Of a stretch of DNA of 29,503 nt, positions 4,939 through 21,945 are shown piece after piece; position 1 is the stretch's first letter; each line of letters begins with the position of its first letter. The notes beneath the pieces were generated by a model. It was not told the origin of the DNA, ran no database searches, and saw only the letters and a list, made by a program, of their open reading frames with translations. The position numbers were made by a program, and so were the translations under genes. Origin of the DNA: a virus; the IMG/VR virus record IMGVR_UViG_3300050821_002033, positions 1 through 29,503 of that record; one strand, 5' to 3'.

Positions 4939-5120
4939 TTCTTCTTTCGTCTCCCGCCCTGCATCAGAATGCCTACCACGAGCTCACGGTAGGCTTTGGC
5001 GTGCGCCCCACAAAAGCGTTTCTTGCCGGAATTCCTAGCCTCTAGACCGCAAGGCACAAGCAGTGCCCGTTCCGCTACGACCGTCTCCCGGAATGCGATA
5101 CAGCGCCTCAATTTGTCCAT
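4935..5120 (-). CDS. small Cys/His protein, unknown
   Basis: A 61-residue basic protein starting at ATG inside the last codons of the upstream gene (13-base overlap). It has Cys at residues 7, 24 and 37 and a His at 40, in a pattern (LVPCGLEAR...KRFCGAHAKAYRE) that might bind zinc, and it ends in a run of Arg and Lys. The ribosome-binding site is weak (CCAGGT next to the ATG). I do not recognise a family. The stop overlaps the next start as ATGA, which supports it as a real gene. Confidence 0.5.
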   Translation of the reverse strand: MDKLRRCIAFRETVVAERALLVPCGLEARNSGKKRFCGAHAKAYRELVVGILMQGGRRKKK

Positions 5121-5989
5121 ACCTGGAACGAACGGGGCAACATGCTCGCCGCGTCAAAGCCCAATATCAGGCGCACGTTGCCCGTCACAGCCCCGCTAGC
5201 CAGCAAGGATGGAATCTCAATGGTCTGCCCGGTGTTCAGTTGCGCCCCTGCGGGATTAAGAACAATCGGCAAGAGGTTTACCATCGCGGGCGTTACGTTT
5301 ACTGGACCCGTGCAAACCGCTATGGCCGACGTGTTGAAGGTAGCCGAGCAGACGTTTTGCCCATCTTGCGAGAGTTTAAGCGTGGCCCCGGCAAAGATGC
5401 TGCCTGAGACGAGCTGCGCCGGGTCGCTGCCGTCGCATTTGGTGCAGTTCACTAGCTGGATGCCGAAGGTTAGCGTATCAAACTTGGCGGGAACAATTGG
5501 CGTGGCAGTCAGCAGTATGTCATCGAACATCACTTGCGACGGCCCGGCTAGAAGCGTGAGGACCAACTCTCCTGGCCCTGTGCACGTCATCGTTTGCTGG
5601 ACGAGAGAGGCGGCTACAAGCGGGATAGCTCCTGTCTGGGTGCAAGTGACAGCCCCGCCTAGCGAAGCTCCCCAAGTCTGAGGGATAGGGAATCTAGCCT
5701 GCGAGCCGACATAGTAGGTCAGCGTGTACTTCATTGTGGGGTCGGATGGGCCGAGGTCTTGGGAGCAGGTTGCGTTTTGCGCCCAGAGCACGGATTTTCC
5801 GTCAGGAATAACAGGTAGCTGCGCCGCTGTAGGTGTCTCAATGCCCCAATACTGGCCCGTGCAATTCCATCCAGTCGGAGTGTCGTAGGAGTAGTTTTTT
5901 GTCTGAGCAGGAGACTCGAAACTACCATTGATCAGTGTTTGTGCCCGAAGGCTGCTGGCGAGCAGGAGTAGTAGAGCTAGGCGTCTCAT
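5108..5989 (-). CDS. exported beta-sandwich, carbohydrate-binding-like protein
   Basis: A 293-residue protein. The chosen start, MRRLALLLLLASSLRAQT, follows GGAG by eight bases and overlaps the upstream stop as TGATG; it opens a clear Sec signal peptide with a likely cut after LRAQ or LRA. The mature part begins INGSFESPAQ, the Asn-Gly-x-Phe-Glu start seen in galactose-binding-like, DUF642 and CBM-type beta sandwiches, and goes on to FDDILLTATP near residue 180, a usual end for that fold. A second beta-rich domain with paired Cys follows. I infer a secreted or surface-displayed sugar-binding protein. It closes the four-gene exported cassette, in a place where a phage normally encodes tail fibres. 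Confidence 0.7.
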   Translation of the reverse strand: MRRLALLLLLASSLRAQTLINGSFESPAQTKNYSYDTPTGWNCTGQYWGIETPTAAQLPVIPDGKSVLWAQNATCSQDLGPSDPTMKYTLTYYVGSQARFPIPQTWGASLGGAVTCTQTGAIPLVAASLVQQTMTCTGPGELVLTLLAGPSQVMFDDILLTATPIVPAKFDTLTFGIQLVNCTKCDGSDPAQLVSGSIFAGATLKLSQDGQNVCSATFNTSAIAVCTGPVNVTPAMVNLLPIVLNPAGAQLNTGQTIEIPSLLASGAVTGNVRLILGFDAASMLPRSFQVWTN

Positions 5990-8034
5990 CAATTCGGCTC
6001 CGATTGGCAGGAGATGATGTAGGTGTTTCCCGCAGTCAACGCGGTTGCCACTCCCAAGATGCTGTTTGTCCATGTAACTACCGGGACCGTTGCACTGCGC
6101 GTGGAAACCTTCACGTTTGCGGTGCTCCCCCATGCTCCAGTTCCGTCCGCTAGGTCACAAGTCAGGTTCGGAAGGATGCCGCTATTGATTTGGTTCGTCC
6201 CTGCATAGGTTATCGTTGTCGTTCCCGTGCTGCCTGGAGTAGTCCCCATTGTCATTACAACATCGAAAGCATTGTTCCCTTCCGTGTTGGCTGTCGCGCA
6301 AGATTGTCCCGGCGACCCGCCGCCAGTTGTAAGCACGCAGCTTGGTAGCACCGTAGATTCTAGCGCTGCGCCAGTGAATTGGTTGCCGCCTAGATTGAAA
6401 ACTCCTCCAGTGGTTAATGTCACGCCGTTCGTGCCGATGGCGTGGGTGCTCCCATTGATGGGAGAGGAGTCGCGCAAGAACAGTTTACCTGTCGCCGTTA
6501 GCTGCACTCCATAGGCTGACCCGCTGGCGTTGTACCATGAAGTCATGTAGGCGGTTGCAGGTCCATTTATAAAGATATGGGTCCCGCCAGCACCTACAGC
6601 GCCGTAGGATTGATCGTGTAAACTTGTCCAAGTAAGCGCACTGGCATCGCTCCCAACCCACACGCCAATCGTTGAAGCCGTTGCTCCGATATAGAAATTC
6701 TCCGTTCTGAGAACCGTGCCAGAGCCATTGATTTTCAAAGGGGATAGCCGCGTTTCGCCGCAATAGCTGTCCGTCAAAATGACGTTCACGCCGTTGGCAT
6801 TGCAGGCCTGTCCGCCGAATCCGCTGTTGTACATGCCATTAAATTTGTTTGCGAACGGGTAGTTGACGCCGATGCTCGCCGCGTCAAAGCATCCGTAATC
6901 TGTCATCGTCACGTTTTGCCAAAAAGTAGACGATGCGCTTGGATTGAAGAGAACTACCGCATTCGAGCCGGTTTGACAGTGACCGCCTCCAGTGATCGTG
7001 AAATTTCCGCCACCCATGAAATTCGAGAACAGGCAGCCAACGTTTCCGGCTACGCTTGTACTTATCCCGGTACAAGCGGCATAGTTCGAGTCAGGCGGCA
7101 GAAGAAAGGTTGTGTTGGCGATACCCTGCCCCCATATATTGTTTCCACCGACAGCTTGGCGGGAAGTGTTGCCAACACCGCTTGCACCGTTAGAGACAGT
7201 GCCGCAATTCGGGCTGTTATTATTTCCGAATCCGAATGGTAGCGGAGTCGTCCCGGCAGGCACACTGACACTCACGCAACTTCCAGCTAATCCAATGTTG
7301 TAATCCACGCTTCCGACTGCGCAGCACCATTTCGCGCGGTCGTCCGTGAACCACCAGAACTGCCCACCAGTAGGAGTAAGCAGAGCGGCTGTCGAATTAC
7401 CAACAACGTTCACTGTCGTAGGACTGGCGTATGTGACTATCCCCAACGGCCTAGTGGCTAACCCTCCAGGTGACGGGAAACAAGTAAGCGGTGTTGAACA
7501 GTTCGTGCCGAAACCAAGCTTCCCTGTATCGGCGGGGACGAATGGGCCAACATTGGAATCAACGATAAGTCCATTGGTTGTTGAACTGCCATTGGCGTGT
7601 ACGTTCGCCATCGTAACGGTGTTGGCGGTGACTCCCGTCAGAGTGAACGTGCCATTGAGGTAGGTATCCGCCCCGGAAAATATCGAAACCGTGACGCTAT
7701 CCCCGGTATTCCATCCATGTGCGAGTGGGTTAAACGGCTGACTGGCCAGGTTGAAAGAGATTGTTTCCACGTTCGACGCCACGGCTCCGGTTATGGGGGC
7801 ACTGCCAGAATTGCAAGTAACCAGAGTGCTTGTGTTAGGCCATGTGACGTAGTAGCAAACCTGCCCATCGAAGCTGATGTTGTATGGAGGAGCGTTGGGG
7901 TAAATGACGAGCGGTCCAGCAAGACCGGAATTCTTTGCCGCTACTGACGTGCTCCCCCCGCCTGAGCCTCCGCCTATTTGCGTTTGGGCTGCCAGCGTGA
8001 AAGGCACAAGGAAAAATATAAGAAATTTTCTCAT
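5989..8034 (-). CDS. exported beta-helix tail-region protein
   Basis: A 681-residue protein that starts at an ATGA overlap with MRKFLIFFLVPFTLAAQTQ, a Sec signal peptide with a likely cut at LAAQ. A Gly/Ser linker follows, then a long repetitive beta-rich body with many Asn, Gly, Ser and Thr and scattered Cys, and a C-terminal beta domain ending in YIISCQSEPN. Turns such as NFTITGGGHC and FWQNVTMTDYGC recur in the middle, consistent with a right-handed beta helix as found in pectate-lyase-like and tailspike proteins. I see no clear catalytic triad. It is probably a fibre, spike or glycan-active protein; the signal peptide is unexpected for a virion part. Confidence 0.7.
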   Translation of the reverse strand: MRKFLIFFLVPFTLAAQTQIGGGSGGGSTSVAAKNSGLAGPLVIYPNAPPYNISFDGQVCYYVTWPNTSTLVTCNSGSAPITGAVASNVETISFNLASQPFNPLAHGWNTGDSVTVSIFSGADTYLNGTFTLTGVTANTVTMANVHANGSSTTNGLIVDSNVGPFVPADTGKLGFGTNCSTPLTCFPSPGGLATRPLGIVTYASPTTVNVVGNSTAALLTPTGGQFWWFTDDRAKWCCAVGSVDYNIGLAGSCVSVSVPAGTTPLPFGFGNNNSPNCGTVSNGASGVGNTSRQAVGGNNIWGQGIANTTFLLPPDSNYAACTGISTSVAGNVGCLFSNFMGGGNFTITGGGHCQTGSNAVVLFNPSASSTFWQNVTMTDYGCFDAASIGVNYPFANKFNGMYNSGFGGQACNANGVNVILTDSYCGETRLSPLKINGSGTVLRTENFYIGATASTIGVWVGSDASALTWTSLHDQSYGAVGAGGTHIFINGPATAYMTSWYNASGSAYGVQLTATGKLFLRDSSPINGSTHAIGTNGVTLTTGGVFNLGGNQFTGAALESTVLPSCVLTTGGGSPGQSCATANTEGNNAFDVVMTMGTTPGSTGTTTITYAGTNQINSGILPNLTCDLADGTGAWGSTANVKVSTRSATVPVVTWTNSILGVATALTAGNTYIISCQSEPN

Positions 8035-10061
8035 GGATGCACCCTAATATTGAAAGCAATCGTCCCGCCAGCGGAAGCTGCTACGGCACATTCGTTGATA
8101 GTGACATTGCCTGCCGAAGAAACAAAAGCTGACCATACCGCTCCAACTCCCGGCGTCGAAACTGGCGAAGCTTCAGCTACCATTGTTGTAGTCGCTCCAG
8201 CCACGGCGGTCGTGCTCTGAACGCACGTTCCCGCTGTAGTAGCCGTGGCGAAAGCCGAACTTGTGGCCGACAGATTGAACGCTAAGTTCACATTTGTCAG
8301 AGGGTCGGGAATCGATACTGCTCTAGCCGCTGCTGTGGTCCCCGGCGTGAATGTGAAATTGTTTGTAGCCGCCGTACCCAACACCAATGCGTTCCAGGGA
8401 AGCGAGCCTACGCCCAACTGGAAGCCTGTCGTTGAGGGCACGAGATGGTTGGCAAACTGGAATTGATTGCTGCCGTTTACCTGCATACAAATATCAGCAT
8501 TGTTTGCCGCATTTCTCCAACACGCTGAATCCGTATTGCCTAATCTAATTTGCCCAACCGAGGCTATGTTGGCCGCAGTGCTTCTGAATGATGGCGCCAT
8601 AAAGAAACCAGAAGATTTGCAGCCAATAGCTGCTATGCTGCTACACACTGAACCGTCGCTGTTGACCCTGTAGAGGATGGAGTCCTGAGCCGTTACTGTG
8701 TTGGTGTTTATGTCGTCCAAAACAAGATTCGTTGCTCCATTTAGCGTGGCTCCGTGAATGGAAATGTTTCTGCCGCTGGCCACGTTGCGAATATGCACTA
8801 CGTTCGTTACTGTAGAGTTCCCGCTGACACCCAGCAGATCAACTCCGGGCGTAAGCGTTGCCGCTCCGGGCGTCGAAGTACCAGCGTTAGGCTGACCATT
8901 CAATTCGATGCCGTCTACGCACTGTTCAAAGTGGACCCTGACGAACGAAGCGGCGGCGGTGTTTATCAGCCTCATGCAGCTTTGCATCTTCTGAGTTGCC
9001 GCGCCGTTGGCAGTTACGGTGATGCGTTCAGCGCTGGTGTCGGCAAAAATAGTGGAACTCGTACCAGCAATCTCAAATCCCACCGAATCTTGCGCTATGG
9101 TAGAGTTTGCGCTCATGGTGATGTCGAGGTCTTGTAAATCCCAATTCTGCGGAGAGCCTCCAGCACTCTGCACTGAGTTGGCGGCGGTCTGTTCTATTTT
9201 GATGCCACGGTATACACAGTTATTTGGAGCGATGCGGCCTGCCCCAGAAAGCTCATTGATGGAGTTGGAATAGATGCCCGTTGAACCGGGGATATTCGCA
9301 CACTCAACCACGACATCCTGCAAGCGGGAGCCGTGGTCAAACGCTCCGCCGTAATTTGGCGTATCGCCAAGCACCACGACTGGAGGAGTTACCGTGCAGG
9401 TGCCATTGCATGTATCATTGACGACCGACCCGCCATTGCCCTGGCAGGTGACCGCTGTCCCTGCAATCGCCGTCACGATGCATGTTCCATTGATCGCCGT
9501 AAAACGAGACATCTGCAAAGGTGTTCCGAGAGCCACGCCTAACCCAACGGAAGTGGTGAATGTGACTACTCCTCCGGCGCTGCGCTGAGCATTCGCGGAA
9601 GCTACCGTAGCCGTTGGAAAGGAACCTCCAGCCGTGATGTGCGCTCCGTAATCGCCCTTGATGGTGTAGCCGTTAGGGACAAGCACTGGGAAATTGACGG
9701 TGACTACGGAACTGGCTTGCAGGTAAAGAGCGCCTAAACAGGCTCCGGTATGAAATCCGGCGAATAAATCTCCTGCCGCTGTTTCGGTAAATCCTCCTTT
9801 GACTACGATAGTCGAGGAGCACCCGTTAGCGGCAAGGGCTGCTTCGATGGTTGTGTACTTCGTTCCATCCACATAGAAGATGCTGTTGAAATTACCGACC
9901 GCGTTGAAAGTCCAAACTCCGGTCACTGTGCAGGCAAGATTGGACGCACAGAAAGTGTTAGTCTGGGCGCGAGCCGCTGGCGTCATCAGAAACCACTGTT
10001 CAGCAGTCGTGACGACGAACAGGCCAGCCAGCATCAGAAGAGCAATCAGCAGTCGTTTCAT
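8031..10061 (-). CDS. exported pectate-lyase-like beta-helix protein
   Basis: A 676-residue protein whose ATG (10059-10061) overlaps the upstream stop as TGATG. It has a long signal-like N-terminus, MKRLLIALLMLAGLFVV then AEQWFLMTPAARAQ, with a likely cut after ARA. The mature protein begins with a short beta segment, then FYVDGTKYTTIEAALAANGC, the start expected for a pectate_lyase_3-type beta helix on phage spikes. A long Asn/Thr/Gly-rich repetitive body follows, including QDLDITMSANS and FVRVHFEQCVDGIEL rungs. The C-terminal domain contains LGVGSLPWNALVLG and TFTPGTTAAARAVSIPDP, a motif set I associate with fibre C-termini. I infer a tailspike or fibre protein; enzymatic residues are not identifiable. 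Confidence 0.72.
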   Translation of the reverse strand: MKRLLIALLMLAGLFVVTTAEQWFLMTPAARAQTNTFCASNLACTVTGVWTFNAVGNFNSIFYVDGTKYTTIEAALAANGCSSTIVVKGGFTETAAGDLFAGFHTGACLGALYLQASSVVTVNFPVLVPNGYTIKGDYGAHITAGGSFPTATVASANAQRSAGGVVTFTTSVGLGVALGTPLQMSRFTAINGTCIVTAIAGTAVTCQGNGGSVVNDTCNGTCTVTPPVVVLGDTPNYGGAFDHGSRLQDVVVECANIPGSTGIYSNSINELSGAGRIAPNNCVYRGIKIEQTAANSVQSAGGSPQNWDLQDLDITMSANSTIAQDSVGFEIAGTSSTIFADTSAERITVTANGAATQKMQSCMRLINTAAASFVRVHFEQCVDGIELNGQPNAGTSTPGAATLTPGVDLLGVSGNSTVTNVVHIRNVASGRNISIHGATLNGATNLVLDDINTNTVTAQDSILYRVNSDGSVCSSIAAIGCKSSGFFMAPSFRSTAANIASVGQIRLGNTDSACWRNAANNADICMQVNGSNQFQFANHLVPSTTGFQLGVGSLPWNALVLGTAATNNFTFTPGTTAAARAVSIPDPLTNVNLAFNLSATSSAFATATTAGTCVQSTTAVAGATTTMVAEASPVSTPGVGAVWSAFVSSAGNVTINECAVAASAGGTIAFNIRVHP

Positions 10062-11506
10062 CAATAGGGGCCTTCTAAACGGATATGAAGCGCATATTGC
10101 ATCGAAGTCGCTCCACTCGTCGCGTAGCCGGAAGTCGAGTAGCTGATAGCCACGCCGGATTTGGCATAGAAATTTTGTGGGGCAAATGGAACAATCGCTC
10201 CTACTGTATTCGCCGTACTGTTCGTAACAAGCGCGATAGTCTCCGAAACACCTGTGTCGGCATCAGTATAGAGCACATTGCAAAGAGGAGATGTGGAACT
10301 GACCGTTGCTGCTTGAGTCACAACTACATAGCAAGAGAAGCGATAGAAGCCATTTCCCCCAGGCGTAAGGATTGGGGTTGAGGTGATGTTTGCTCCTTGG
10401 GAAGTCAAGTTTACCGCCGTGGACAGTCCAGGAGTCCTGATTTCCGGGCCAAATAAATCAACCAAATAAGTTCCAGCACCCACGTTGGTAAGTAGGACTC
10501 GCCCCATGACTTGGCCGCCGCTTATGGGATAGGTTGCCGAGCCGATGTCGTGGCAATTACCTATGACCGTGGAACTGATTTGCACGTAATCTCCGGCTGT
10601 CGTGCTCCCATCGCAGGTCCAAAGAACTTGCCCACTTGTCTGGACCACGGCAACCCCAGAAGTTCCCGCTCCAGCGATGACCACGCCGATGGCGCCGCCA
10701 GTATCCGTGATGGCCGTAGACTGGATGAAACTTCCCCCTCCTGACGGCGCAAGCTTCGCCAAGAGGTTGAGACCTGTTCCCCCTGCTCCATTTGTATAGG
10801 CTTGGAAATTTGTAGGATTGCCGGAAGAGACTGTATCGCCGCCAAGCGACAAGCCATTAATCGTCGGACTATTCAGCGTTGGACTCGTCGCAGTTAGTCC
10901 CGTCGCCGCGCCAGTAAAAGCAGGGCTGGCCAAGGTTTTGTTCGTCAGCGTTTGCGTCCCCGTTAGCGAAACCAGGCAATCCCAGAATGTCGTAAACGCT
11001 CGAAAGCAAGAAATGTCCGTGCGGTAGGCCAGTTCCCCAGCTGTACCCGAAGGGTCGGAGGATGCGCCGAGCACAAACAGATTAGACGCTTGATTGAGGA
11101 TGGTCCAAGCCGAAACATAGTCCACCGTGCGCACAAGCGTTCCCGTTGCGCAGTTATCATTTGAGCCATCGTAGGCCACGATTTTGAAGCGGTAGGACGC
11201 ATTTGATAGCCAGATAGACCCGTAGCCGCCAGAATCTAATATCACGGGATTGCTATTCACGAAATTACCCGTACCATCGGTGTAGGTTGCGAGCGGCGAA
11301 CTGGTTCCGCTTGCGTATGTCCAGACGCAACCAGATGCCAATGGCACCCCTGTTTGAGAGAAGAACGGTTGAGCGATAGGCGTCAATGGACTCATGGCAA
11401 CGGGGACTTGAGAAAATAAAGGAAGTGGCAACAAAAGAATGGTAAGATAGCGGCTGAATCTCAGTGCATTAGAGGTGCACCGATGAAAAAACGCATGAAG
11501 CGACAT
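10061..11506 (-). CDS. tail fibre with virion-binding-type N-terminus
   Basis: A tail-fibre protein of up to 481 residues. After a signal-like stretch (RYLTILLLPLPLFSQ) comes PIAQPFFSQTGVPLASGCVW, then SPLATYTDGTGN, PVILDSGGYGSIWL and YRFKIVAYDGS. This series is the N-terminal fold of many podovirus tail fibres and spikes, which attaches them to the tail. A Gly/Thr-rich shaft follows with TLTNKTLASPAFTG, and then a beta-rich C-terminal domain. The start is uncertain: ATG at 11504-11506 (used here), a CTG nearer the hydrophobic core, or an ATG at 11393-11395 that drops the signal. The same frame stays open up to 12028 through the antisense of the HNH gene. The 5' end overlaps that divergent gene by 24 bases. 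Confidence 0.7.
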   Translation of the reverse strand: MSLHAFFHRCTSNALRFSRYLTILLLPLPLFSQVPVAMSPLTPIAQPFFSQTGVPLASGCVWTYASGTSSPLATYTDGTGNFVNSNPVILDSGGYGSIWLSNASYRFKIVAYDGSNDNCATGTLVRTVDYVSAWTILNQASNLFVLGASSDPSGTAGELAYRTDISCFRAFTTFWDCLVSLTGTQTLTNKTLASPAFTGAATGLTATSPTLNSPTINGLSLGGDTVSSGNPTNFQAYTNGAGGTGLNLLAKLAPSGGGSFIQSTAITDTGGAIGVVIAGAGTSGVAVVQTSGQVLWTCDGSTTAGDYVQISSTVIGNCHDIGSATYPISGGQVMGRVLLTNVGAGTYLVDLFGPEIRTPGLSTAVNLTSQGANITSTPILTPGGNGFYRFSCYVVVTQAATVSSTSPLCNVLYTDADTGVSETIALVTNSTANTVGAIVPFAPQNFYAKSGVAISYSTSGYATSGATSMQYALHIRLEGPY

Positions 11507-12019
11507 GCTGTAATCCAGCCGCTTGACCAATCTATAAAACTTATCCCGCTTACGCAAGGACAGAATGCCATCGTGGACGCCGCCGACTTCGAGTGGCTTT
11601 CGCAATGGAACTGGTATGCCATCTGGTCTAATTGCACGAAAAGCTTCTACGCTACCAGGGCAATCGCTGGACGGCACACGTCCATCTCCATGCAACGGCA
11701 AATCCTTGAATGCGGACCGCTCGAAGAAGGGGATCACGAGAACAGAAATACGCTGGACAATCGACGTCAGAATCTTCGCAAATGCACGCACGTACAAAAT
11801 TGTCGGAATCGTAAAGCCCGCGTTAACAGTTCTACTGGATTCAAGGGAATCCGCTGGCGCAAGAGTAGGCGGTGTTGGGAAGTGCGCATTCAATACAACG
11901 GAAAAAGGACTAGCTTCGGAGGCTCTTTTGATTCTCCCGAAGAAGCGGCGCGCGCTTACGATAAGGCTGCAATAAAGTTCTTTGGTCCATTCGCTCATCT
12001 TAATTTCCCTAATCCTTAG
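11483..12019 (+). CDS. HNH/AP2 homing endonuclease
   Basis: A 178-residue protein starting at ATG, five bases after GAGGTG (11472-11477). Residues about 80-112 form an HNH_3-type core (EEGDHENRNTLDNRRQNLR, then KCTHVQNCRNRK), with His and Asn in the usual places. Residues about 118-175 are an AP2 DNA-binding domain: FKGIRWRKSRRCWEVRI, GKRTSFGGSFDSPEEAARAY and KFFGPFAHLNFP. This is the standard plan of free-standing phage homing endonucleases, which cut an unoccupied site and copy themselves in. It is the only plus-strand gene inside the minus-strand late operon, fitted between an ejection gene (11-base overlap at its 3' end) and the tail fibre, as expected of a recent mobile insertion. Confidence 0.92.
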   Translation: MKKRMKRHAVIQPLDQSIKLIPLTQGQNAIVDAADFEWLSQWNWYAIWSNCTKSFYATRAIAGRHTSISMQRQILECGPLEEGDHENRNTLDNRRQNLRKCTHVQNCRNRKARVNSSTGFKGIRWRKSRRCWEVRIQYNGKRTSFGGSFDSPEEAARAYDKAAIKFFGPFAHLNFPNP

Positions 12020-13175
12020 GTCCCCCATAAATCACAGTAGGTCTACCAGATTCCAGCAAATACTTCGAGTTCGGCACCGCCGAGGCCACATCAATGCCGC
12101 CCGGATTCCGAATCAGTTCCCGTAAGGCGTTCAAATCTCCGCCACGAGCCATGTGCACAAGCAAATCCCGGTCGTAGCTTACCAGTGTCCGGTTAATAGG
12201 CGGAGGCGGCGAAAGCGCAGTTTGAATCTTGCTTGGCTCTGGTGCTTGGAAGCCCCCGCCTTGCGCAAAGAGCTGTGGCGAGCTTTTTGGAATATCTCCC
12301 GCGGGCGGAAGTTTCAAGTCTGAGAATGTGGCCTTGGCGCTGGAAGTCATGCCTTCAAACGGGGATGGTTGAGGCGTATTCTTGGCAGCCAATCTAGCGG
12401 CTGCCTGCTGACGCTTTACGGCGGCAGCTTGTTCTGTGGCATCTTGCATTTCTAGCTTGGCTTTATCGGTAATAGCTTGCTGGCGAGCCGCTTCAGTCTC
12501 TTTCATTTGCGATTCGAGTTTGGCCGCATTGGTCTCTCCCGCCTGTTTTGCGGCTGCGGCAGCTGCTTCTGGCGGTGGAGGAACAGTCGCCCGTAGAACA
12601 TTTTCAGGGAGTTGCGTTGGATGTAAAATGGACCGTCCCACTTTGGAAAGTTCAGCCGTGCCATCGGCGGCTACTTCTCCTGTATACATCATGCGGCTAA
12701 GAGCACTGCGAAGGGCAGGAAGACCCGCACCAAAGGCCTCTCCAACCCCTTGCCCTGCGGCCATTCCAGCTCCGGCAGGTAGAATCTCGGAAGGATTTAC
12801 TTTACCAGTTCCTGCGGCTTGACCGGCAACGTTTCCAGCCGCTCCTCCAACTCCTGCGCCAAGCATTCTGGCTAGAACTCCAACGATTCCACGCATTCCA
12901 GAAGCAACTTCCCCGCCAATCGTCCCGCCTACCATCTCTAATCCAGTTTTTCCGCCCTCGGCATATCCAGCCTTACCAGCCGCCTCGAACTTAGCTCCTT
13001 CGCCAGCGGGAACATCGGTGAACATGGGAGGGCCGCCCATTGTTTGCTGCATAGCCCGTTCCGTCTTTGGTGCTCCCAACTGTTTTTTGATAACCGCAGA
13101 AATATCCGCGTCGGCCATCGAATCAGGGAAGGCCACGATTCGCCCATCAGGAAGTTGTACGTTCTTGTCGGGCAT
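12009..13175 (-). CDS. ejection protein candidate (gp16 position)
   Basis: A 388-residue protein starting at a TGATG overlap. The N-terminal NVQLPDGRIVAFPDSMADAD motif followed by a short helix (ISAVIKKQLG) is shared by many phage internal proteins. Residues about 70-150 are Gly/Ala-rich and hydrophobic (MVGGTIGGEVASGM, GAGVGGAAGNVAGQAAG), a likely membrane-insertion segment. A long Ala/Gln/Glu helix follows (EAAAAAAKQAGETNAAKLES), and the C-terminus is Pro-rich with a short ordered tail. By place (third of three in front of the fibres) it corresponds to P22 gp16, one of the ejected proteins that carry DNA across the cell envelope. The direct sequence match to P22 is not evident, so the role is inferred from order and composition. 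Confidence 0.65.
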   Translation of the reverse strand: MPDKNVQLPDGRIVAFPDSMADADISAVIKKQLGAPKTERAMQQTMGGPPMFTDVPAGEGAKFEAAGKAGYAEGGKTGLEMVGGTIGGEVASGMRGIVGVLARMLGAGVGGAAGNVAGQAAGTGKVNPSEILPAGAGMAAGQGVGEAFGAGLPALRSALSRMMYTGEVAADGTAELSKVGRSILHPTQLPENVLRATVPPPPEAAAAAAKQAGETNAAKLESQMKETEAARQQAITDKAKLEMQDATEQAAAVKRQQAAARLAAKNTPQPSPFEGMTSSAKATFSDLKLPPAGDIPKSSPQLFAQGGGFQAPEPSKIQTALSPPPPINRTLVSYDRDLLVHMARGGDLNALRELIRNPGGIDVASAVPNSKYLLESGRPTVIYGGPKD

Positions 13176-15869: not shown

Positions 15870-16132
15870 ATCAGCTGCACCCAAGTCTTTCCGTTCCACA
15901 GGTCTACGTGCCCGCTGTCCGTCTCATACACTATAGACCCTATTGTCAAGTTGCCTGTGGCTAAAGCGAGACGCTGACTGTGGGTAAGTGTATACGCTTT
16001 GGGGCTAGAGGCCATGAAAGAAATGATCGACTGGAAGAATTGCTGCCAGGCAAGGACAAAGTTCCCATCCGAGCCGATGGGCTTGGTCTGGAAGATGGCC
16101 AGTTGCGCGTTTTGTGTCGTAGTTGTTGGCAT
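15866..16132 (-). CDS. small tail protein
   Basis: An 88-residue protein starting at a TGATG overlap with the gp10-like gene. The N-terminal half is helical (FVLAWQQFFQSIISFMAS), and the C-terminal part, GSIVYETDSGHVDLWNGKTW, resembles the Tyr-x-Thr-Asp...Trp-x-Gly-x-x-Trp beta motif common at the ends of phage tail and fibre proteins. Its place directly after the tail hub gene is that of the P22 gp26 tail needle or gp14. It is far shorter than gp26 and has no long coiled coil, so I call it only a small tail or tail-completion protein. Confidence 0.65.
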   Translation of the reverse strand: MPTTTTQNAQLAIFQTKPIGSDGNFVLAWQQFFQSIISFMASSPKAYTLTHSQRLALATGNLTIGSIVYETDSGHVDLWNGKTWVQLI

Positions 16133-18051
16133 CAGCTAACCTTTTGGTATTGCCGGACCAGTCTCTCGCTTGGCTTGTAGCCAGGTTCGGCGTTGATGTA
16201 GCCATTGACGATGCGGATGGGCACAGACTCTGAACAAGTGACTTCAAGAGTCCTAATCCTCGCCGCTCCCAGCCTGTACCAGATTACGCGCGTCTTCCAT
16301 TGCCCGGCTTGCCCCGCGTCTCGTGACTGGGCATTTGACCACGTATGTCCAGCGTCGTCTGACCATCTGAGCCAGACGAGCGGCCCGCGAGCAAACAGGC
16401 TGAAATTCTGCGAAGTCTGCAAAAGCCCCGTTGCCGTTACGCTCAAATTCCAAGCATTCGTCGGAGAAACCATTGGGATGGTCGAGGGATTGGCAGCGTT
16501 GAATGTAACCACGGTTGTGGTCAGCAGTCCGGCAATCGTGACGCCTAGCTGCCAGGTCGCCGCGCCGACATTCAGAAAGATGGTTTGGGCCGCTCCGAGT
16601 GAACCTGAAGTTGTTTGGAGCAGGCCAGCCGAGGTAACGGTCACGCCCCACAGGATGCCATTGGCATCTTTCAGCGTCAGGATCGTAGGACTTCCCCCGC
16701 CAGTCTGGAGAGGCGGCTCAGGCCCAAGCCCTGTCTCCATATCCAACGTGAACTTGTCGAAGCGCGTCATTTCCAGCTCTGTCGAGATGTGCGGCGCACG
16801 GCGTAGCTTGATGATTGGCACGCCGGCATTGCTGTAGAAACTTGTGCTCATCTGGTAGAGGTTCGCTGACCGCCAATCGCCTACTACGTGGAAACCATTC
16901 CAGTAAGCATGGTTCCAGCTTGGATGGCCGAGACTTCCTCCGGTCGCCTCACTGAGCAAATCCCTTTCATGCCAAAGTCCCGTCGCCACGTCATAGACCC
17001 AAGTAGCCCCGTTTCCATTGTTAGCCGAGGGGAACAGCACGACCCAGAAAGCGTGGCCTTGGTCCTGATAGGCATAGCTGACCGCATCGCTGCGCTTGGG
17101 GTAGCTTTTCCAGGCCAGTTCCACGGCGTGCGTCGTGATTCTCTGAGGCGTCAAGCCATTCAGCCGGAAGCCCATGCCATCGCCTTTGTCGTCGCCTGAA
17201 ACCCAGAAAGGCGAGTTGTCCAGCTTGCTCATCGCAAACGTAGCGATAGCGCCTTGCTCGACAAAGGAACCTGGCTGAACAGTGAAAATATTGATCGGGT
17301 CGCCAGAGCTGTAAGCAACAGTCGCTTTGCGGCCCAGGAGCCAAAGATTCCGGTGGTCTACGATCATGCCAACCACGTTTTCAGGATAGACGCTGACGAT
17401 GATCTGACTGGAGACGCCTCCGGTATAGACTCCGCCGACTATCGAGCCGCCAGGAATCCAGTTGTAGCCGTCGAGGACATTCGAGATTTGAATGCTCTGG
17501 CTATTGGCAATCAGGGCTAGAAAGAACGAATCGCAGAAGGCCACTTGTTTGACAGGGGCATTGCCTCCGGCAGTCGTGAAGTTTGAGGCTGGCACTTGCT
17601 TAAACGTTCCTGCTGCAATCGGCAGCCCAGTCACGGAATCGTTTATCTTGTTCAGGTAGTAGATGTAGACGTTTCCCGCGCTAGAAATGAGCAGCTGATT
17701 TTCGTTGGCGGCAATCGAGGCTGGCAACCCATCGTTGGCCATTGGTGCGCCGGGATTGAGCGCCGTGAGGGAAACGACCGCGGGGCTGGTCAGCGTCGGG
17801 GGCGAAACAAGGATGACTTGATAGAAATTCACCCCGCCTACAACATAAAGCATCCCGTTGAATTCAAGCTCCGCTCTCGAAGCAGCGTCCAGTTGGGCAA
17901 GGATGGCCAAGCCGGGCGTGTTCAGCAAGGTCATCTTTGACCGGCCATCGCCAGACTCGACTATTTCGGGATATAGGTTTAGCGTGCGCTGATTGTCAGC
18001 GTTGATTGTGGAGAGGGTGTAACTTCCTGAGCAAAAATCGAACTGTGCGAT
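16132..18051 (-). CDS. gp10-like tail hub / packaged-DNA stabilisation protein
   Basis: A protein of about 639 residues in the P22 gp10 position after gp4. Repeated FW, YW and Trp-Asp motifs suggest a beta propeller, as in gp10-like hub proteins that plug the portal and hold fibres. The annotated-looking ATG at 17932-17934 is too far downstream: the frame upstream of it encodes AQFDFCSGSYTLSTINADNQ, then RTLNLYPEIVESG, the conserved N-terminus of this family. No ATG, GTG or TTG lies in that part. The family usually begins M-A-Q-F-D-F, and the codon in the Met position is ATC (18049-18051), seven bases after AGGAG. I therefore place the start at ATC. The gene is in the same frame as gp4, divided from it by one TAA and one GGT codon. 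Confidence 0.8.
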   Translation of the reverse strand: MAQFDFCSGSYTLSTINADNQRTLNLYPEIVESGDGRSKMTLLNTPGLAILAQLDAASRAELEFNGMLYVVGGVNFYQVILVSPPTLTSPAVVSLTALNPGAPMANDGLPASIAANENQLLISSAGNVYIYYLNKINDSVTGLPIAAGTFKQVPASNFTTAGGNAPVKQVAFCDSFFLALIANSQSIQISNVLDGYNWIPGGSIVGGVYTGGVSSQIIVSVYPENVVGMIVDHRNLWLLGRKATVAYSSGDPINIFTVQPGSFVEQGAIATFAMSKLDNSPFWVSGDDKGDGMGFRLNGLTPQRITTHAVELAWKSYPKRSDAVSYAYQDQGHAFWVVLFPSANNGNGATWVYDVATGLWHERDLLSEATGGSLGHPSWNHAYWNGFHVVGDWRSANLYQMSTSFYSNAGVPIIKLRRAPHISTELEMTRFDKFTLDMETGLGPEPPLQTGGGSPTILTLKDANGILWGVTVTSAGLLQTTSGSLGAAQTIFLNVGAATWQLGVTIAGLLTTTVVTFNAANPSTIPMVSPTNAWNLSVTATGLLQTSQNFSLFARGPLVWLRWSDDAGHTWSNAQSRDAGQAGQWKTRVIWYRLGAARIRTLEVTCSESVPIRIVNGYINAEPGYKPSERLVRQYQKVS

Positions 18052-18054
18052 ACC

Positions 18055-18786
18055 TTATCTCCTGTCAACATACGTATCGCTGCGCCAATCGTAGTATCCA
18101 TCCCTGCCAGTAAGCCCTGAATCACATGTCAGGATAGGCGCCGGAAGGTTCAATTCCTTGAGAGCTGCCAAAGAGTTTTGCGCGATGCCGAGTACGAGCT
18201 GGTCGGGCGTCAATTTGTATTCCGCCATCAAAGCAATGGCCAGATTGTATTTCAGCGCGCGCGCATAGGCTGGTGGAAAGGTGACGTTTGTTGTGTTCAG
18301 GTCTGGGAACGTCGAGAGCGGATTCCAGCAGTAGAGAACCAGAGAACACGCAAGGCTCGGAATCTGGTACACGTACAGGTTCATGTTGGGGTAGGCATAA
18401 TCCGGGTAGACGTTTAGCGGATAGTTGCCCTGGATGTTCTTGACCCGGATATTGGCCCAGCCTTCGTAGTCGAGCAAGGAAATGGGGATTTCTGGCGGCT
18501 GCGTGGGGTTGGAGCCTGTCAGAAGCATCCCAGCCCGTTGAATCTTCGCTGGACGGATGTAGGCAAAAGTGCCTGTAGGCCCGAGCGTGTAGACTTGCTG
18601 GCCGATGACAAGCGGCAATGTCAGGATGTTTTCTTGGAAGACTTTTAGCCCGTCAGCCTGCCACTCATCAATCATGTCCTGCGCGATGACAAGACATTCT
18701 TGGGGCATGTTGCCTTGCAGGACATCGCCGCTGGCCAAAAGCCCTGCAAGCCTGGCGGCTGCATTGAGCAGGTCTTGGCCAAGCAT
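18055..18786 (-). CDS. gp4-like tail accessory factor (head-tail connector)
   Basis: A 243-residue protein. The N-terminal helix (LGQDLLNAAARLAGLLASGD) and the following MIDEWQADGLKVFQENIL, then QQVYTLGPTGTFAYIRPAKI, ISLLDYEGWANI, NVYPDYAYPNMNLYVYQIPS and FPPAYARALKYNLAIALMAE form the well-known pattern of P22 gp4-type connector proteins (P22_AR/gp4-like tail accessory family). These bind under the portal after DNA packaging and receive the hub. The gene starts three bases after the upstream stop and ends with TAA in the frame of the gp10-like gene. It carries the ribosome-binding site of that gene in its last codons. Confidence 0.8.
   Translation of the reverse strand: MLGQDLLNAAARLAGLLASGDVLQGNMPQECLVIAQDMIDEWQADGLKVFQENILTLPLVIGQQVYTLGPTGTFAYIRPAKIQRAGMLLTGSNPTQPPEIPISLLDYEGWANIRVKNIQGNYPLNVYPDYAYPNMNLYVYQIPSLACSLVLYCWNPLSTFPDLNTTNVTFPPAYARALKYNLAIALMAEYKLTPDQLVLGIAQNSLAALKELNLPAPILTCDSGLTGRDGYYDWRSDTYVDRR
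18058..18063 (-). promoter_or_regulatory. Shine-Dalgarno that fixes the ATC start
   Basis: The minus strand reads AGGAGA here, inside the last codons of the gp4-like gene. The AGGAG core ends seven bases before the ATC at 18049-18051, an ideal distance. No other usable start codon in the gp10-like frame lies near enough to use it. It is the main sequence argument for initiation at ATC. Confidence 0.7.
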
Positions 18787-20727: not shown

Positions 20728-21945
20728 TTAGCTCATAATCCGGCAGGCCGTCTCTCCGTAGAGAGTGACCCAGCCATACAGAACGTCGAAACGCCCTGGC
20801 AGACGGTCTTGGTTGTAGTCGTAGGCTTTAAGGTAGCGCACGGAAAGCCCTAGTTGGTCGCTGGCCTTGCGCTCGCACATCTCAGCAGACCGGATAATGG
20901 GAAGGTCGGCCATTCCGAGAGCAAAGCTACCTTTGTGGAAGCAAAGCCCTTGCGGAGAGACGGTCGAAGCCGCGCCGCTGATGTTGATGCTTGCACCGGC
21001 TTGAGGAGCTGCGTTGACGTTCTGGAAAGGCCCGGAAAGCACGATAGCCGGGAAGATAGGCGCTGTGGCCGCGCCGCCAGAGCTGGTTACATCGGCGGTG
21101 AAAGTGAAAGACTGCAAGGAGTTGATTTGCGTCTTTTCCTGCGGGTTGACGGCGTAGACCCCCGTGGCCCCTGAGCCAATCGTGAATGTATTGCCCTTTT
21201 TATACAGCGCGGTCACCGACCCGGCATTGGAGAGCACAAGCGAAGCGCCGGACTGTCCACCGGCATTGACAGTAACCTGCGTTGCGCCGTTCAAAGCCCC
21301 TACAGTGTTGTTGGCTACGTTCTGGTCCATCTCCCAGACAGCGCCAATGGCCTGACGCATGTAGCCGGATTCGTACTGCTCGGAAATCGAGCTGCCCGGC
21401 TCAAGCAAGCCCTTCAAAGCGTCAACGATCTGCGGTTCCATCGCCTGCGAGATGATGATGGCGCGAGGCTCGAGAGCTGCCGCGTTATCATTCAATTTCT
21501 GCATGGCTTGGAGGTAAGTCAGGAGGGCATTGGGAACGGTGCCCGGCACGCCTACAAAGTTCGCTACGTTGGCGTACTGCAAGAGGCCATCGGAATCAAT
21601 CTTGTTGGCGATGCGCGCCATGCCGGGGTCGAGGAAGCGTTCCGTGAAGTTCTCAATATTGAGAGCGAAGTCTTTCGAGGAGAAGAACGTGTCAACGCCG
21701 AACTGCGTGGTGAGCGTCAGCTGCACGCTGGTTTCGGTCGCATCCTCAGCGTTGAAACCTTGACCGGATCGGCCTACAAAGCGGGGCGGCTTGCGGATGG
21801 CCAGAGTATCGCCAATCTGCGCGCCTTCGTCGCCAAAGTCGCGGTCGTAATCTCGGCGTACATGTTTGGTGAATTTTAGCTGGTTTTCAAGGACCGGCAA
21901 CCCTTCCATCGTGACCATCCCGATGGTAAGTAGCTGATTTGCCAA
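20728..21945 (-). CDS. P22-type major capsid (coat) protein
   Basis: A 405-residue coat protein of the P22 gp5-like family. The N-terminus ANQLLTIGMVTMEGLPVLEN, then RKPPRFVGRSGQ, TTQFGVDTFFSSKDFALNIE, RFLDPGMARIANKIDSDGLL, AAIGAVW/MDQNV-type central strands, AASTVSPQGLCFHKGSF and the C-terminal LDVLYGWVTLYGE-like end (RFDVLYGWVTLYGETACRIM) follow this family in order. It forms the shell with the HK97 fold plus an inserted domain. The start codon is TTG (21943-21945), seven bases after AGGAGG (21953-21958). A dedicated candidate promoter lies upstream, and the encoded GroES-like protein may assist folding, as P22 coat is a GroEL client. Confidence 0.93.
   Translation of the reverse strand: MANQLLTIGMVTMEGLPVLENQLKFTKHVRRDYDRDFGDEGAQIGDTLAIRKPPRFVGRSGQGFNAEDATETSVQLTLTTQFGVDTFFSSKDFALNIENFTERFLDPGMARIANKIDSDGLLQYANVANFVGVPGTVPNALLTYLQAMQKLNDNAAALEPRAIIISQAMEPQIVDALKGLLEPGSSISEQYESGYMRQAIGAVWEMDQNVANNTVGALNGATQVTVNAGGQSGASLVLSNAGSVTALYKKGNTFTIGSGATGVYAVNPQEKTQINSLQSFTFTADVTSSGGAATAPIFPAIVLSGPFQNVNAAPQAGASINISGAASTVSPQGLCFHKGSFALGMADLPIIRSAEMCERKASDQLGLSVRYLKAYDYNQDRLPGRFDVLYGWVTLYGETACRIMS

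Follow-up and report, generated by a model that had tools for sequence, protein, structure and literature searches.

A probable AUC start codon in a phage gp10-like head-closure gene, and near-cognate starts in the virion genes of its relatives

To our knowledge, few bacterial genes, most of them regulatory, have documented AUC, AUU or AUA (AUH) start codons, and the Escherichia coli infC gene begins with ATT. Streptomyces infC starts with ATC (PMC5472188) and that of Staphylococcus aureus with AUA (PMC13009471), and conserved near-cognate starts accompanied by an extended Shine-Dalgarno (SD) sequence are found in S. aureus cvfC1 (AUU) and ccpN (AUA) (PMC13009471). The original prediction for the locus described here, which cited AUU in infC as the known bacterial case, was therefore drawn too narrowly. 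In S. aureus, AUH starts with a strong SD sequence give about 10% of the output of AUG in poor medium (PMC13009471). As regards phages, no convincing AUC or AUU start was found in the literature of the open PMC subset; the announcement of f18SE lists ten coding sequences with AUU starts, without evidence (PMC4599075).

We describe here a gp10-like gene of an uncultured phage, in a 29,503-nucleotide stretch of viral DNA (IMG/VR record IMGVR_UViG_3300050821_002033; hereafter the window), for which initiation at AUC had been predicted.

The gp4-gp10 junction and the conserved N-terminus

The gp10-like gene sits directly downstream of a gp4-like adaptor gene (Table 1). Its phrog_578 match spans residues 2-468, and a profile made from the window protein and its relatives in annotated phages finds the P22-type gp10 structures 8eap (2.8e-22) and 8tvr, as well as 7eeq and 9vyg, two other solved stabilisation/needle-head proteins. 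The gp10 relatives measure 525 to 841 aa, the length varying through an insert before the conserved C-terminal part; in the window this insert covers residues about 443-556 and contains repeated GLLQTT/TWQLGVT-like segments. Elsewhere in the window, where the structural region draws to its end, a predicted protein (5108-6133, minus strand) matches PF22825 (HpiC1-like; 2.9e-7), and a Pfam search with the large proteins at 5989-13175 gave no match.

Table 1. Positions of the genes, start codons and signals discussed (window coordinates unless a contig is named)
Feature	Position	Strand	Match or remark
gp10-like head closure/tail hub gene, 639 aa counted from ATC	16132..18051	-	phrog_578 (head closure Hc3), E 2.3e-76
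gp10 codons 2-39, 5' of first ATG, under protein constraint	17935..18048	-	residue identity and third-position differences
Predicted ATC initiation codon, gp10-like gene	18049..18051	-	aligned with family Met column; relatives ATT/ATA/TTG/GTG/ATG
gp4 TAA stop	18055..18057	-	between SD and ATC; TAG in L015/L020
Shine-Dalgarno AGGAG	18059..18063	-	inside last two gp4 Arg codons; 7 nt 5' of ATC
gp4-like adaptor gene (SU10 adaptor/P22 gp4 position), ATG to TAA	18055..18786	-	PF24175, E 6.8e-8; phrog_12985, E 6.2e-34
gp4-like adaptor, ATC at family start column	L143 2664-2666; L150 1601-1603; L154 11576-11578	-	
Major capsid gene	20728..21945	-	phrog_283, E 3.4e-54
Major capsid start TTG	21943-21945	-	preceded by AGGAGG; TTG/GTG in orthologues, ATC in one, ATG in none
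Major capsid start, relatives	L133/L157 1594-1596	+	group MCP starts never ATG

From 18063 to 18034 the minus strand reads AGGAG ATAAGGT ATC GCA CAG TTC GAT TTT, and the codons across the junction are GAC AGG AGA TAA GGT ATC GCA CAG TTC GAT TTT TGC. The two genes share a frame, with the gp4 TAA and a single GGT codon (18054-18052) alone between them. The AGGAG duplex amounts to -7.4 kcal/mol, and an AGGAG at 5-9 nt spacing is met at 0.5% of random minus-strand positions. Within the stop-to-stop frame of gp10 (18054-16132) the first ATG, whose first base is 17934, falls at residue 41, or codon 40 if counting begins at the ATC, and upstream of it the frame contains neither GTG nor TTG. These readings agree with the original prediction, which had described an ATC seven bases after AGGAG, a shared frame interrupted by TAA and one codon, and a conserved N-terminus with no ATG, GTG or TTG ahead of it; the site itself is as placed, the only amendment being that plus-strand numbering had been given for a minus-strand site.

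The ATC had also been said to occupy the position of the family's Met. In annotated phages the gp10 gene starts with ATG in 12 of 13 cases and with GTG in the other, and alignment puts these codons in the same column as the ATC, the N-termini matching IAQFDF of the window (Rhodoferax phage P26218, for example, has MAQFPFVGGSYTARS where the window has IAQFDFCSGSYTLST); L004, whose annotated ATG is internal, was left out of this alignment. Over codons 2-40, between 25 and 28 of the 39 residues are identical in comparisons of the window with four relatives, and the differences are mostly at third positions; against the sister-phage contig L020, considered below, they number 14, 12 and 23 by codon position. 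This third-position bias, together with the residue identity, indicates that the region 5' of the first ATG is protein-coding. Initiation at the internal ATG at 17934, the first canonical start in frame, would leave the 39 upstream codons untranslated and the N-terminal stretch AQFDFCSGSYTL absent from the product. It would thereby drop the conserved N-terminus common to all homologues, against the constraint just described, and the solved homologue 7eeq aligns from its residue 1 with position 1 of the gp10 profile. We consider such an internal start extremely unlikely.

A perfect 7-bp inverted repeat, GCGATAC/GTATCGC (18079-18046, minus strand), encloses the SD sequence and includes the ATC. 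As a start-site hairpin it was rejected, since the region folds no better than shuffled sequences (z 0.67) and the repeat is absent from the ATT-bearing relative L020. An out-of-frame ATG near 18072 in gp4, which opens another frame, was likewise set aside, not being conserved in L015, and an Rfam search matched no known RNA element.

Start codons among relatives of the phage

A scan of viral contigs with gp10 as a single protein returned no relatives; those discussed here were recovered by portal, adaptor, aligned gp10 and major capsid protein (MCP) queries. No relative was found in the genome collections searched, where pattern matches proved unrelated by tblastn, and the MCP was absent from the three sampled genomes in which it was looked for.

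Contigs L015 and L020, recovered by the portal and adaptor searches respectively, are two independent assemblies of one sister phage, 99.5% identical over 3.7 kb, which shares 75% identity with the window in the portal, 72% in gp4 and about 60% in gp10. Their junction reads GAC AGG AGA TAG GCC ATT TCC AGA ATT GAT TTT TGC: AGGAG and the seven-base spacing are identical to those of the window, the stop is TAG, and ATT, preceded by AGGAGATAGGCC, stands at the position of the window's ATC. It had been suggested that related phages be searched for ATC or ATT at this place, and the sister phage supplies the latter. Other gp10 relatives start with GTG (L022), TTG (L023, L024) or ATG (L025-L030). In trees the window and L020 form a clade (support 97/97 in a tree of 16 rows and 88/90 in one of 10), with the GTG and TTG members as its sister and the ATG members as outgroups. 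At four-fold degenerate sites the window and L020 are 37-39% identical, which is about saturated, and neither has ATG; the near-cognate start has therefore outlasted near-saturating synonymous divergence, or else arose twice. Initiation at AUC, the first choice of the original prediction, is favoured by the relatives, the orthologous codon in this column being ATT, ATA, TTG, GTG or ATG, and translation of gp10 very probably begins at the ATC codon at 18051-18049.

The MCP search added further members to the group, which came to about 15 contigs, several of them only fragments, and whole contigs were then screened for open reading frames whose conservation extends 5' of the first canonical start codon. 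AUH starts were found in gp10 of the window and L020, in gp10 of G014 (ATA), in gp4 of G006, G012 and G015 (ATC) and in the MCP gene of G008 (ATC); each of the five in G contigs stands at the family start column and has an SD-like site of the GGAG, GAGG or AGGTG type. The non-canonical starts, spread over three virion genes, are AUH in 7/7 cases, with a chance probability of about 1e-9 if they are independent and about 7e-6 for four independent events. On our reading of the trees, AUH starts would have had at least four separate origins. Overall, the starts are ATC 1, ATT 1, ATA 1, TTG 2, GTG 1 and ATG 4 for gp10; ATC 3, GTG 3, TTG 2 and ATG 2 for gp4; and TTG 11, GTG 3, ATC 1 and ATG 0 for the MCP gene in 15 contigs, these totals using starts set by eye, one codon shifted, for gp10 of G006 and G010 and the MCP of G005 and G007. 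Portal, scaffold and ejection genes that had seemed to lack a start were discarded as candidates, these having variable N-termini with ATG, GTG or TTG further upstream. In wider relatives and annotated phages, gp10 and gp4 starts are canonical wherever the N-terminus is present.

A sequencing or assembly error concealing a true ATG had been raised as a possibility, and the window is indeed a single metagenome contig whose ATC lies one base away from ATG. Against this, the independent sister-phage assemblies read ATT there despite their low four-fold identity to the window, and another five contigs carry AUH starts, never other random codons, the genes concerned being three. The suggestion is contradicted by these observations and we find it barely credible; AUC starts seem to be a recurring feature of the phage group.

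The other alternative raised was readthrough of the gp4 TAA, producing a gp4-gp10 fusion and leaving gp10 without a start of its own. The in-frame arrangement, with TAA and GGT between the genes in the window and TAG and GCC in the sister phage, permits a fusion in this one genome, and an ordinary Ile codon would likewise be expected to change between ATC and ATT. However, sister lineages have GTG or TTG at exactly this codon, and the register is not kept among relatives: in G012 the genes overlap out of frame at TAATG, in G006 and G009 other sequence intervenes, and in G007 gp10 follows a spacer of about 135 nt, has a GGGAG and a TTG to itself and would therefore be initiated independently there. 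The stop varies between TAA and TAG with no leaky UGA-C type context, readthrough leaves unexplained why gp4 and MCP genes in other contigs start with ATC, and the gp4 and gp10 proteins of P22 are separate (PMC5850374). Since several relatives have the two genes in different frames or apart from each other, the family, judged from these comparisons, does not make gp10 by readthrough, and for the window we think readthrough very unlikely; the shared frame would be accounted for by a start placed right at the stop.

Gene specificity and possible reasons for weak starts

Initiation at AUC could proceed as follows. AGGAG would hold a 30S subunit, which might be freshly recruited or remain from gp4 termination three bases upstream, and initiator fMet-tRNA would pair with the first two bases of AUC, leaving a third-base mismatch, so as to initiate next to the gp4 stop at a reduced rate and give a product starting fMet-Ala-Gln-Phe. 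We infer that ribosomes do initiate at the ATC, that fMet is used and that the rate is limited by IF3. With reconstituted E. coli translation, IF3 was seen to exclude AUC strongly when the anticodon is mismatched; it tolerates only Watson-Crick pairing at the first two codon positions and disfavours a mismatch at the third (PMC10158994); this counts against AUC initiation. Re-initiation is also sensitive to IF3, less so with an SD sequence present (PMC2268962). Help from a phage-borne modified initiator tRNA or a phage-borne IF3 was considered and rejected, there being no tRNA in the window or the relatives' contigs and no IF3 domain in the 12 contigs examined.

The weak starts are confined to particular genes. 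Four neighbouring families in the same contigs have ATG in 40/40 cases (orf20718, 15/15; orf20071, 5/5; orf19353, 12/12; orf14491, 8/8), and the weak starts are therefore specific to MCP, gp4 and gp10, where ATG accounts for 0/15, 2/10 and 4/10 starts, respectively. Taken together, ATG is found in 6/35 starts of these three genes against 40/40 in the controls (Fisher 3e-15) and AUH in 7/35 against 0/40 (p = 0.003), both p-values ignoring relatedness and L015 and L020 being counted separately in the controls. Every weak start codon is accompanied by an SD-like site, with median SD pairing in these genes of -7.4 kcal/mol for AUH, -8.7 for GTG/TTG and -5.6 for ATG starts; ahead of the MCP gene a strong AAGGAG-type SD sequence is present in all 15 contigs. 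The leader of the window's capsid gene (22110-21946, minus strand) contains a small hairpin, GTAGG-TGCGATT-CCTAC, also seen in L016 and L017, and a promoter-like sequence, TTGACA-16-TATCTT, also seen in L015.

From these distributions MCP, gp4 and gp10 may have been selected for weak starts. We tentatively propose that, in this group of uncultured tailed phages, the UUG, GUG, AUC, AUU and AUA codons of the capsid, adaptor and head-closure genes, the capsid never having AUG, are deliberate and backed by strong SD sequences. An equally tentative explanation, which concerns the reason for the AUC start rather than the AUC start itself, is that AUC is used without regulation, host ribosomes readily accepting AUH codons and starts drifting under a strong SD sequence. 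The interchange of UUG, GUG, AUC, AUU, AUA and AUG among orthologues and the strong SD sequence at most weak starts are consistent with such drift, and the uniform ATG of the four neighbouring families in the same contigs argues against it. Either selection for weak starts or drift tolerated in strong-SD genes could lie behind them. At a guess, the likeliest purpose would be setting relative output within the operon, or making that output responsive to the condition of the initiation apparatus.

A lowered dosage of gp10, proposed originally as the role of the AUC start, is plausible but unproven. It fits the stoichiometry of P22, in which gp4 is present in 12 copies and gp10 in 6 (PMC5850374); simple low-level expression is weakened as an explanation, since weak starts, one of them AUC, are also found on the capsid gene, and it is the capsid protein that is in greatest demand. 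The strong SD sequence of the capsid gene may offset its weak codon.

Significance and comparison with known systems

Within a single phage group, near-cognate starts are here seen repeatedly in genes for essential virion proteins, once in that for the major capsid protein, and gene callers restricted to ATG, GTG and TTG truncate or miss such genes. The orthologue series of ATC, ATT, ATA, TTG, GTG and ATG offers natural variants for testing selection on, and yield of, near-cognate phage starts. If the weak starts are deliberate, the initiation-fidelity machinery of the host would tune virion protein output, which would in turn be sensitive to it.

In gene content the locus resembles the gp4-gp10 module of P22, an adaptor followed by the gp10 stabilisation/head-closure protein, and the profile matches solved gp10 chains; it differs in its start, the gp10 relatives examined in annotated phages all beginning with ATG or GTG. 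The Streptomyces pair sigR (GUC start) and rsrA offers a parallel in which a rare start sets the ratio of two partner proteins (PMC5472188), although the codon there is GUC rather than AUH, and control of the gp4/gp10 ratio in the phage is a hypothesis only. The S. aureus genes cvfC1 and ccpN differ in being cellular genes with experimentally shown starts and in their extended SD sequences, that of the phage being AGGAG. With infC, whose AUH start has a functional SD sequence and is discriminated against by IF3, the locus shares a predicted AUH start with an SD sequence and the variation in AUH codon among orthologues, and it may share the discrimination by IF3; infC, however, encodes IF3 itself, giving feedback, whereas the phage genes encode virion proteins.
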